A stretch of 64,000 bases of DNA from Halorussus ruber (GTDB taxonomy: Archaea; Halobacteriota; Halobacteria; Halobacteriales; Haladaptataceae), in NCBI RefSeq assembly GCF_004765785.1, contig NZ_SBIT01000015.1:62001-126000 (forward strand). Reading direction: 5' to 3'. Below the pieces are notes generated by a model that searched no databases, had not been told where the DNA came from, and saw only the letters and a program-made list of their open reading frames with translations. The translations under genes were made by a program, and so were the position numbers. Below are positions 25,476 through 54,722 of the stretch, piece by piece (position 1 is the first letter of the stretch; each line of letters starts with the position of its first letter).

Positions 25476-25740
25476 TTCTTGAAGCCCCCGCCCGCTCGCG
25501 GTCGCTGAGCAGGATATTCGCCGCTCTCCGCACCGCCCGCGGCGAATAGTGGCCTGCTCAGGCGACTGAAGTGTACGCGACCGGGCGGCCCCTTCGTCCA
25601 CCCAAACGTGGTTTGATTGGCCGAGCGCATTCCTGCCGGTTGGTCGGCCGAGCGTTCGCCGGTGGTTCGTTTCACCGAGCGTTCGCCGGTGGTTCGTTTC
25701 ACCGAGCGCATCCCGGCGGCCGTTCGCTCGCGCTCGGTGG
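25476..25740 (-). repeat. structured intergenic repeat, copy A, with upstream CGCTCGG array
   Basis: Read on the minus strand. The base stem is CCGCCCGGTCGCG (25576-25588) with CGCGAGCGGGCGG (25488-25500, one mismatch). The main stem CTGAGCAGG/CCTGCTCAG (25553-25561 and 25505-25513) and inner stem ATTCGCCGC/GCGGCGAAT follow, with loop GGGCGGTGCGGAGA. The 3' end reads GGGGGCTTCAAGAAG. Upstream (25600-25740) are four to five units starting CGCTCGG, about 27 bases each, two of them identical. This is the shortest complete copy, without extra arms. The whole gap 25286-25817 holds no gene. Confidence 0.75.
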
Positions 25741-39540: not shown

Positions 39541-39609
39541 CATCTGCCGCTCGATAGCTGGCCGACTGAACCATCGGAATCGAACTCGGCTGACCGGACC
39601 ACAATCACG

Positions 39610-39735
39610 GGCCGGGCGGTGTGGAGAGGCCCGCGATATGTCGCTGAGCGACCGCCGGGAGACAAACCGCGTCTCCCGAGGTCACGTTCACTCTGTTCAC
39701 GTGACCGCGACCGGGCGAGGGCTTCAGAAGACGAA
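39610..39735 (+). repeat. structured intergenic repeat, copy E (3' part only)
   Basis: The loop GGGCGGTGTGGAGA and the 3' side of the main stem GTCGCTGAGCGACCG are present, then the module CGGGAGAC-AAACCGC-GTCTCCCG (39656-39678; inverted relative to copies C and G), the arm GGTCACGT/ACGTGACC with perfect pairing (39680-39706), and the end CGCGACCGGGCGAGGGCTTC. The 5' side of the main and base stems is missing, so this copy is truncated. It lies 100 bases before the mutase start; the rest of 39541-39840 shows nothing else. Confidence 0.65.
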
Positions 39736-44706: not shown

Positions 44707-44941
44707 CGCGCTCGGTGAGACAACTGACCGTTTGGGTGGACTGAAAGGGGCCGCCCGGTCGCGTTTACGTGGTCGTCTGGCCGACCCCTATCGGCGCGGG
44801 CGGTGTCTCACCGAACGAAGTGAGGTGACGGCTCGGAAGTCGCAGTCCGCGCAGGCCGAAGGCCGAGCAGAACCGTCTTCCGGAGCGGAGAGCGCCGATA
44901 TGTCGGCCAGCGACCGCGACCGGGCGGGGGCTTTCTAAACC
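44707..44941 (+). repeat. structured intergenic repeat, copy B
   Basis: Begins with GCGCTCGGTGAGACAACTGA, then GGGTGGACTGAAAGGGG. Base stem CCGCCCGGTCGCG (44751-44763) pairs perfectly with CGCGACCGGGCGG (44915-44927). Main stem CTGGCCGAC (44777-44785) pairs with GTCGGCCAG (44902-44910); TATCGGCG pairs with CGCCGATA. Inside are the arm TCACC-GAACGAAGTGA-GGTGA and a long variant of the CGGAAG/CTTCCG hairpin holding GGCC-GAA-GGCC. It ends GGGGGCTTTCTAAACC. The remaining bases to 45015 hold no gene. Confidence 0.75.
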
Positions 44942-47156: not shown

Positions 47157-47475
47157 TTGTTCGGCCGGGCGCGACCGCTCGCGGTCGCGCCCCGCCGACC
47201 AACCCCCACGGGTGCGCGCGGCAGACCAGACAACCGGCAGGCACACGGCCGACTAACCGCCGGCAGGCGCTCAACTGAACAGACTACCGGGTGGGATGAA
47301 GGGGCCGTCCGGTCGCGTTCACTTCAGTCGCTGTGGTGGCTCTATTCGCGGCAGGCGGTGTCTCGCCGAGCGAAGCGAGGCGATGGCTCGGAAGACGCGG
47401 TTTGTCTTCCGGTGCGGAGAGCCGCGAATATCCACCACAGCGACCGCGACCGGGCGGGGGCTTCAAGAAGACAAC
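47157..47475 (+). repeat. structured intergenic repeat, copy C, with degenerate upstream array
   Basis: Upstream (47170-47290) are three to four degenerate 25-29-base units such as GGCCGACTAACCGCCGGCAG. The core starts GTGGGATGAAGGGG. Base stem CCGTCCGGTCGCG (47305-47317) pairs with CGCGACCGGGCGG (47445-47457) with one G-U pair. The 13-bp main stem GTCGCTGTGGTGG/CCACCACAGCGAC (47327-47339, 47432-47444) is perfect; ATTCGCGG pairs with CCGCGAAT. Two arms follow: TCGCC-GAGCGAAGCGA-GGCGA and CGGAAGAC-GCGGTTT-GTCTTCCG (47389-47411). It ends GGGGGCTTCAAGAAGACAAC, shared with copy A. No gene lies in 47081-47572. Confidence 0.78.
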
Positions 47476-47572
47476 ACCGCCGCGGTTCTGCTGTTCGCGC
47501 TCACGATTAGAACCAGCCAAAATACGCACCGAGCCGAATCCTCAAGGCCCGCGGCGTAGTCACTCAGAGACC

Positions 47573-48280
47573 ATGCCCGACTCCGGAGACCCCGACGACT
47601 CCAAATCCGACAACTCCGAAGCGCTCTGTTTCGACATGTACGGCACGCTCTGCGACACCAGCACCGTCACCACAGCACTCGGCGAACACCTCGACGTGGC
47701 AGACGGCTTCGTCGCAGACGTGGACGCGGTCTGGCGGCGGACCCAACTGCGCTACGCCCAGCAGGTCGCGCTGATGGAGGAGTACCGACCCTTCTGGGAG
47801 GTCACCGAGCGGGCCCTCGACTACGCGCTGAACTTCTACGACCTCGAACCCTCCGAGCGGGCACGCGAGGAGATCATCGCGGCCTACGAGGACCTCGACC
47901 CCTACCCGGACGCCGCCGACGCGCTGGCCGACCTCGGCGACTCGCACACCGTGGTCGTCCTCTCGAACGGCAACCCCGAGATGCTCGCCACCCTCGCGGA
48001 GAACGCCGGTCTCGCGGACCTCCTCGACGACATCGTGAGCGCCCACGAGGTCCGGACGTTCAAGCCCGACCCGGCGGTCTACCGGAACGCCGCGGACCGA
48101 CTCGACCGCGAGTTGGGCGAGTGCCGACTGGTCTCCTCGAACCCGTGGGACGTGGCGGGCGCGGCCAGCGCCGGGATGGCGACCGCGTGGGTGAATCGGT
48201 CGCGCGAACCCGCCGAGGAGGTCGGGGGTGAGGCCGACCTGACCGTGGAGTCGCTCTCGGTGCTGGCCGAGGTGCTGTAA
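47573..48280 (+). CDS. haloacid dehalogenase type II-like HAD hydrolase
   Basis: A 235-residue HAD-fold hydrolase. Motif I is CFDMYGTLCDTSTV (nucleophile Asp about 21; MYGTL rather than DGTL is typical of L-2-haloacid dehalogenases), motif II VVLSNGNPEML, the motif III lysine in RTFKPDPAVYRNAADRL, and motif IV LVSSNPWDVAGAASAGM. The sequence fits type II haloacid dehalogenases, but the substrate may be another small molecule. The acidic N-terminus PDSGDPDDSKSDNSEA precedes the domain. Confidence 0.87.
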   Translation: MPDSGDPDDSKSDNSEALCFDMYGTLCDTSTVTTALGEHLDVADGFVADVDAVWRRTQLRYAQQVALMEEYRPFWEVTERALDYALNFYDLEPSERAREEIIAAYEDLDPYPDAADALADLGDSHTVVVLSNGNPEMLATLAENAGLADLLDDIVSAHEVRTFKPDPAVYRNAADRLDRELGECRLVSSNPWDVAGAASAGMATAWVNRSREPAEEVGGEADLTVESLSVLAEVL

Positions 48281-54495: not shown

Positions 54496-54722
54496 GCGCT
54501 CGGTGGAACAGACCACTGGGGCGCGCTCGGTTCTACAACTGACAGGGGCGGATGAAGGGGCCGCCCGGTCGCGCTTGCTTGGTCGCTGAGTGACCCTCTA
54601 TCCGTCGCAACCACGTCCGTCGGATATGTCACTCAGCGACCGCCGGAGGACAAACCGCGTCCTCCGAGGCCACCTTCGCTTCGCTCGCGTGACCGCGACC
54701 GGGCGGGGGCTTCAAGAAGTGT
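54496..54722 (+). repeat. structured intergenic repeat, copy D, with upstream CGCTCGG units
   Basis: Two upstream units begin GCGCTCGGT (54496, 54523). The core starts GATGAAGGGG. Base stem CCGCCCGGTCGCG (54561-54573) pairs perfectly with CGCGACCGGGCGG (54694-54706). The main stem GTCGCTGAGTGAC/GTCACTCAGCGAC (54582-54594, 54628-54640) is perfect over 13 bp, with ATCCG/CGGAT inside. The arm CGGAGGAC-AAACCGC-GTCCTCCG (54644-54666) is the same module as in copy C but inverted and placed outside the main stem. It ends GGGGGCTTCAAGAAG. No gene lies in 54381-54852. Confidence 0.78.

Follow-up and report, generated by a model that had tools for sequence, protein, structure and literature searches.

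Copies of the Repeat in the Window

The window, namely the whole 64,000-nt stretch of Halorussus DNA analyzed here, carries five copies (A to E) of a repeat with a folded core. All five copies named in the preliminary description exist, and a covariance model places A to D and, in part, E. The 9-bp stems quoted there for four copies are exact (CTGAGCAGG/CCTGCTCAG in A, CTGGCCGAC/GTCGGCCAG in B, CTGTGGTGG/CCACCACAG in C, and CTGAGTGAC/GTCACTCAG in D), and the ends of the copies do pair, with the correction that they also covary (GAAG/CTTC versus AAAG/CTTT). Copy A (25481..25595, minus strand; covariance model 123.4 bits; RNA fold z = -5.3) has a complete core and is the simplest of the window, with no nested module; copies B to E look unlike it owing to the additional hairpins that they contain as nested inserts. 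Copy B (44744..44934, plus strand; 94.3 bits; RNA fold z = -4.4) is a complete core with the end variant AAAG/CTTT, in which sequence reading and the module catalog identify an apical double-hairpin module (44806..44883, plus strand), the second hairpin of which has another insert in its loop. Copy D (54554..54713, plus strand; 57.6 bits; RNA fold z = -5.8) is also complete and holds a double-hairpin module in its right arm in reverse orientation (54643..54694, minus strand; catalog class "rev"). Copy E (39610..39725, plus strand) is a core truncated on its 5′ side. It retains the inner 3′ arm, a double-hairpin module in reverse orientation (39655-39704, minus strand), and the 3′ end (39707-39725, plus strand; end-pattern match), and its partial covariance-model match spans 39575-39654 at 31 bits. 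The z values of copies A to D are relative to dinucleotide shuffles, none of 200 of which folded as well; the fold of the truncated copy E is no better than such shuffles (z = -0.9).

Copy C, a complete core at 47298..47464 on the plus strand (96.9 bits), has z values of -7.6 for the RNA fold and -6.8 for the DNA fold. Its P0 stem, GAAG/CTTC, pairs 47298-47301 with 47461-47464, and a GGG/GGG loop and P1 lie next inward. The 5′ strand of P2 (CTGTGGTGG, 47331..47339) pairs perfectly with the 3′ strand (CCACCACAG, 47432..47440), and the apical loop contains a nested double-hairpin module (47361..47412) that reads TCTCGCC-GA-GC-GAA-GC-GA-GGCGATGG, CTC, GGAAGAC-GCGGTTT-GTCTTCC, GG, all on the plus strand. 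The upstream flank (47196..47297, plus strand) is a degenerate array of CGCTCGGTGRAACANACCACCGG-like units that ends in GGGTGGGAT, and the downstream flank (47465..47510, plus strand; AAGAAGACAACACC..GGTTCTGCTGTTCGC) includes about 30 bp that are conserved in most copies. An ORF at 47333-48280 (plus strand) opens with a GTG within copy C and is in frame with the downstream gene for a HAD-like hydrolase (ATG at 47573); automatic annotation may place the start of the hydrolase inside the copy.

Fold and Covariation

From its ends inward, the core folds into P0 (RAAG/CTTY), the GGG/GGG internal loop, P1, a bulge or hairpin arm on the 5′ side, P2, a CCNC/T loop, P3, and a cap, which is often of the GNA or GNNA type. 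The constant unpaired parts are the GGG/GGG loop and the CCNC/T loop beside TAT/ATAT. At two columns, tandem G.A pairs substitute for Watson-Crick pairs, and these are kept across genera.

From the genome of the studied stretch (G000, where the window spans C11:62001-126000), in which copies were taken as the stretches around matches, 96 copies were oriented and 50 simple cores were aligned, with a mean column identity of 64%. The RNAalifold structure of these 50 cores comprises 31 pairs, 17 of which have changed on both sides; 96.5% of the cells are paired, versus 33.6-46.1% when the partners are slid by 1-3 columns. Cells with a double change number 172 versus 51 in shuffles, and the covariation score is 0.300 versus 0.092. 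P2 alone (9 bp) occurs as 35 sequences among 66 copies, with 576 Watson-Crick and 16 other pairs. All of these counts are of sequences rather than of independent events, and the controls are shuffles and slid pairing, without phylogeny; within these controls, the covariation does not disappear when many copies are aligned, which the preliminary description had named as the outcome that would speak against its structure. Its proposal that compensatory change reflects selection for a folded single strand is thus borne out by strong covariation and conserved loops: in the reading favored below, the loops are conserved and the stems change in pairs because selection keeps the fold.

Nested Modules

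Many cores contain a double-hairpin module of about 55 bp, composed of a first hairpin (HP1, GA-NN-GNA-N′N′-GA), the linker CTC, and a second hairpin (HP2, GGAAGAC-GCGGTTT-GTCTTCC); between HP1 and HP2 lies another module, the centre of which is TGATCA. The module is found in the apical loop, the 5′ bulge, P1, the right arm (reversed, as in copies D and E), the upstream flank, and the HP1 of another module. The apical-loop site, GGGCGGTG^CGGAGAG, is filled in some copies and empty in others of the same genome. In G000, modules occur at several positions and in both orientations, nested up to three levels deep. No consistent target duplication was found at module insertions. The 5-bp CGGTG of apical loops was considered as a target-site duplication and rejected: insertions at GAGCGGAG^CGAACG retain GGTG, and CGGTG is therefore more likely to be the module's own end. 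Three modules that had appeared free-standing (C10 55988, C8 251840, and C3 45722) proved to lie inside a second type of core. This second type (AAAGGGCGAG..CGAGGGCTTT), also present in G000 at L079 1550-2050 (minus strand), L105 880-1200 (plus strand), L337, and L338, matches cores of the distant families f4 and f8 described below.

Abundance, Spread, and Surroundings

G000 contains at least 148 copies, since 148 of 150 scored candidates match the covariance model at an E value of 0.001, a figure that is a lower bound. Genome-wide, the 5′ end gives 112 matches at up to two mismatches and the reversed control gives one. When three mismatches are allowed, the end patterns give 185 and 229 matches, which is too many: numerous copies are counted twice, because each end differs from the complement of the other at only three positions. 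In each of the 17 other Halorussus genomes the end pattern is matched at least once (range 1 to 121), and the haloarchaeal contigs that share the end are mostly from Halorussus. The covariance-model search of haloarchaeal genomes that the preliminary description had proposed matched 74 of 293 Halobacteriales genomes, from 24 of the 87 genera sampled. Distant matches (families f4, f6, f8, and f13) retain the skeleton with wholly different stems, for example AAAG-GGG-C..G-GGG-CTTT around a P1 of GGGCGTGTCGCG/CGCGACACGCCC. Among plasmids, only short partial matches were found, in those of Halorussus and of strain DL31. In another Halorussus genome (G013), three cores with identical scores and mixed orientation lie within about 7 kb of contig C1 (1923786, 1928491, and 1930926), perhaps a recent local amplification.

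The cores are intergenic, with surrounding genes called by simple ORF rules, and they also lie between divergent genes and antisense to genes. Their outer borders are not fixed. Upstream of the cores, the spacing of GCTCGG/A is mostly 26-27 bp genome-wide, and the final 10 bp are highly conserved; degenerate tandem arrays with units of about 26-27 bp (GCTCGGTGRAACANACCACCGG) occupy the 5′ side of most cores (e.g., window 47196-47288, L012, and L020). Downstream, the first three 10-bp bins carry 0.82, 0.32, and 0.38 bits per position, and a 3′ domain of 70-80 bp (AAGAAGACAACACC..TTCTGCTGTTCGCGGTCAC..AAGCGACCGGGCGGGGGCTTC; e.g., L045, L015, and L047), which is sometimes tandem, repeats the 3′ end of the core. 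Inverted pairs of cores, separated by about 70-400 bp and with the 3′ ends facing outward, were observed at L283-L287 (genome G288), L229 8919-9471 (G027), L159, L237, L249, and L150. Those of G288 and G027 flank a module of the GGCTGGGGAGG type, and the centre of the G288 pair holds TTTATAAATGGCGCGC. Pairs in the minus/plus order occur in G288, G027, Haladaptatus DYF46, and others; most copies in G000 are single.

Turnover at Orthologous Sites

The sites of the window differ between species. At the site of copy C, G014 has about 70 bp without a core and G016 has no core, the core is reversed in G024 and G021, G027 has an inverted pair, and G013 has a 3′ remnant. At the site of copy B, G021 has 37 bp without a core, G027 has none, and G013 has a 53-bp form; G021 also lacks the cores of sites D and E. 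The genes of the compared species are roughly 75-90% identical, a divergence too large for insertion to be distinguished from deletion, and no transposition event was seen among them. In strains of Haloquadratum, repeats that occupy the same position but face opposite ways have been described (PMC3119063).

Strand and Molecule

The fold of the plus strand is the more stable in 91 copies and the less stable in three. Across 107 matches, G.T mismatches number 49 versus 19 for A.C (p = 0.0004); the two are balanced within the 50 A1 cores alone (11:8) and within P2 alone (6:4). The stability of the plus strand and the excess of G.T therefore favor one single strand with a set polarity, and the conserved tandem G.A pairs agree with this.

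Most triloops are cGNAg, in which N can be any of the four bases, and GNA loops are found in RNA as well. Tetraloops closed by C-G are GTCA, GACA, GTTA, and GATA, with GNRA seen once; cGNNAg tetraloops have a pyrimidine as the third base at about 13:1, and gCTTGc and gCAAGc caps occur too. Tips of the GNRA or UUCG kind are almost never found. Streptomyces telomeric DNA has GCA, GGA, and CTTG caps together with compensatory changes (PMC7205883), and CGCGAAGCG is a DNA mini-hairpin of extraordinary stability (PMC10527192). The low share of G.T, 1.5% of the pairs, also points toward DNA. The ViennaRNA DNA parameters store no special loops, so the caps cannot be scored with them and the DNA energies include no loop bonuses. 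The features expected of structured single-stranded DNA, namely a covarying, strand-specific fold and DNA-type caps, are both present, and the type of loop suggests that the folded strand is DNA rather than RNA.

Interpretation

With about as much doubt as confidence, we favor the reading that these repeats form a family of DNA elements in Halobacteriales that are non-autonomous and probably mobile, and the recognized form of which is the folded single plus strand. This reading starts from a covarying, strand-specific fold, an order-wide spread, differences in presence, absence, and orientation at sites, and nesting; it adds that the folded strand would be DNA, that the copies would transpose, and that a hairpin-recognizing enzyme of the host or of foreign origin would act in trans. 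Whenever the strand turned single-stranded, the core would fold; a hairpin-recognizing activity would then act on the folded core, and smaller hairpins would land in its exposed loops. Selection or repeated use would preserve the fold and the loops as the stems drift pairwise. Among the options offered by the preliminary description, it is the trans-mobilized element that the site turnover supports, here as a dispersed element that may be moved in trans.

The other two options offered there, a class of non-coding RNA and a structured regulator, are not our first choice. It is unlikely that the copies are a structured non-coding RNA family, transcribed and folded to bind a protein or a ligand. 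Such a family would explain the strand-specific, covarying fold and some excess of G.U over A.C, and in G000 (and in this genome only) the upstream gene tends to lie on the same strand as the core (48:25, p = 0.01). However, 77 loci from other genomes do not show this sense bias (34:30), and the downstream gene shows no strand bias either. The 300 bp upstream of 93 copies contain few TATA-like hexamers, at no fixed distance, and no conserved promoter; wobble pairs make up only 1.5% of the pairs, and the caps belong to DNA types, not to GNRA or UUCG. At its gathering thresholds, Rfam matched nothing in the window except a tRNA, and it gave no relevant match in full-length relatives at an E value of 0.05. 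Copy numbers above 100 per genome that turn over between species also argue against this explanation.

The survey for a mobilizer covered Y1 transposases and reverse transcriptases. It is rather improbable that the cores are REPIN/PATE-like elements moved on single-stranded DNA by Y1 transposases of the IS200/IS605 or RAYT kind. They are palindromic, intergenic, abundant, and devoid of a transposase gene, six Y1 genes are present in G000, and the inverted core pairs in several genera resemble REP doublets; on the other hand, the search for Y1 transposases gave no match in G011, G013, G014, G015, G018, or G021, though copies are present in all of them and G011 and G013 are high-copy genomes. 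Genomes without Y1 contain 66 and 89 pattern copies, Y1 counts and copy numbers are not significantly correlated (rho = 0.28, p = 0.27), and no covariance-model match falls in any of the six Y1 loci of G000, a set that leaves out IS1341/TnpB-only elements. Y1 transposases were therefore rejected as the mobilizer. Coupling to the lagging strand was likewise discarded, as the cores of G022 and G013 show no strand preference between replichores when a single origin is assumed at the best Orc1/Cdc6 gene; this also weighs against movement by Y1. Retro-mobility was rejected for the genus, in which 18 genomes gave no match to the reverse transcriptase profile PF00078 with positive controls. The survey of these two kinds therefore yielded no mobilizing enzyme, and one that is now extinct may have moved the copies. 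Of the features of MITEs, inverted ends are present and no target-site duplication was seen; a parent transposon was sought among Y1 elements only.

We give little credence to the idea that the fold is under no selection and that quasi-palindrome correction during replication, together with gene conversion, keeps the arms of decaying repeats complementary. Single mismatches are indeed very few beside the many double changes, those in P2 are balanced (GT 6, CA 4), and variants of P2 and P3 are freely combined between copies, all of which such correction would produce. It would, however, erase the GGG/GGG and CCNC/T loops and the tandem G.A pairs, which persist across genera, and the asymmetry between strands in the 107 matches is contrary to it. 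That the cores are cis-acting transcription terminators or 3′-end stabilizers of upstream mRNAs is scarcely credible and was rejected: they do lie beyond gene ends with a sense bias in G000, but this bias is not repeated in the 77 other loci, cores also occur between divergent genes and antisense, and they are reversed or absent at orthologous sites.

Comparison with Known Repeats

No match to an already named element was found in Rfam or in the searchable literature, where a search on the sequences and on intergenic hairpins of haloarchaea, the coverage of which excluded subscription journals and supplements, returned no description. The cores come closest to the SMRs and PATEs of haloarchaea, to REPINs, and to mitochondrial double-hairpin elements, with each of which they share some, and not all, of the defining features. 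The family belongs with the small non-autonomous hairpin repeats.

SMR-A and SMR-B of Haloquadratum walsbyi are about 110 bp long and have inverted terminal repeats, no transposase, an enigmatic mode of mobilization, and no known relation to a transposon, and sites at which they have opposite orientations in two strains have been listed (PMC3119063). The cores resemble them in size, inverted ends, lack of a transposase, and opposite orientations at a site (PMC3119063). In a comparison made by description rather than by sequence, SMRs are mostly more than 95% identical, whereas the cores have a mean column identity of 64% and stems that differ by paired changes. Furthermore, SMR-A targets PATE/IS605 palindromes, whereas the cores lie in ordinary intergenic DNA, are GC-rich, and are nested (PMC3119063). 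With PATEs and the ends of IS200/IS605 the cores share palindromic structure, the lack of a transposase, and many copies; PATEs have no evident target duplication, and no consistent one was seen at the module insertions in the cores. PATEs, however, are similar to the termini of IS605 and lack inverted terminal repeats, whereas the ends of the cores pair and covary and none of the six Y1 loci of G000 contains a core (PMC3119063). REPINs and BIMEs with RAYT are likewise intergenic palindromes with suggested movement as single-stranded DNA, and they sometimes form inverted pairs, as some cores do, most copies in G000 being single; the cores differ from them in a far longer, multi-stem fold and in the lack of a Y1/RAYT gene in some high-copy genomes (PMC3116915).

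Mitochondrial double-hairpin elements and the GC clusters of yeast mtDNA are, like the probably mobile cores, GC-rich hairpins, and they move, merge, shuffle, and turn over in copy number, but they are organellar, and the accessible portions of the accounts describe no order-wide skeleton or comparable covariation (PMC4478555, PMC5910586). Streptomyces telomere palindromes are similar in forming single-stranded DNA hairpins with GNA or CTTG caps, sheared G.A pairs, and compensatory changes; by contrast, they are unique chromosome ends bound by terminal proteins, whereas the cores are dispersed repeats (PMC7205883).

Implications

It is tempting to speculate, though more tentatively than for the family itself, that haloarchaea possess a hairpin-recognizing mobility system without a known transposase, in which single-stranded DNA hairpin elements insert into each other's loops and are conserved by shape, not by sequence, across an order. 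Taken together, paired changes in the stems, conserved loops, and DNA-type caps would make this dispersed repeat a clear example, drawn from sequence comparison, of selection acting on single-stranded DNA in its folded form. The family also explains many GC-rich intergenic repeats that are able to mislead annotation, as with the ORF that opens inside copy C. Since the elements are abundant in culturable archaea and occupy many intergenic regions with varying presence, orientation, and arm content, they offer a test bed for an enzyme that moves hairpin DNA without a recognizable transposase.
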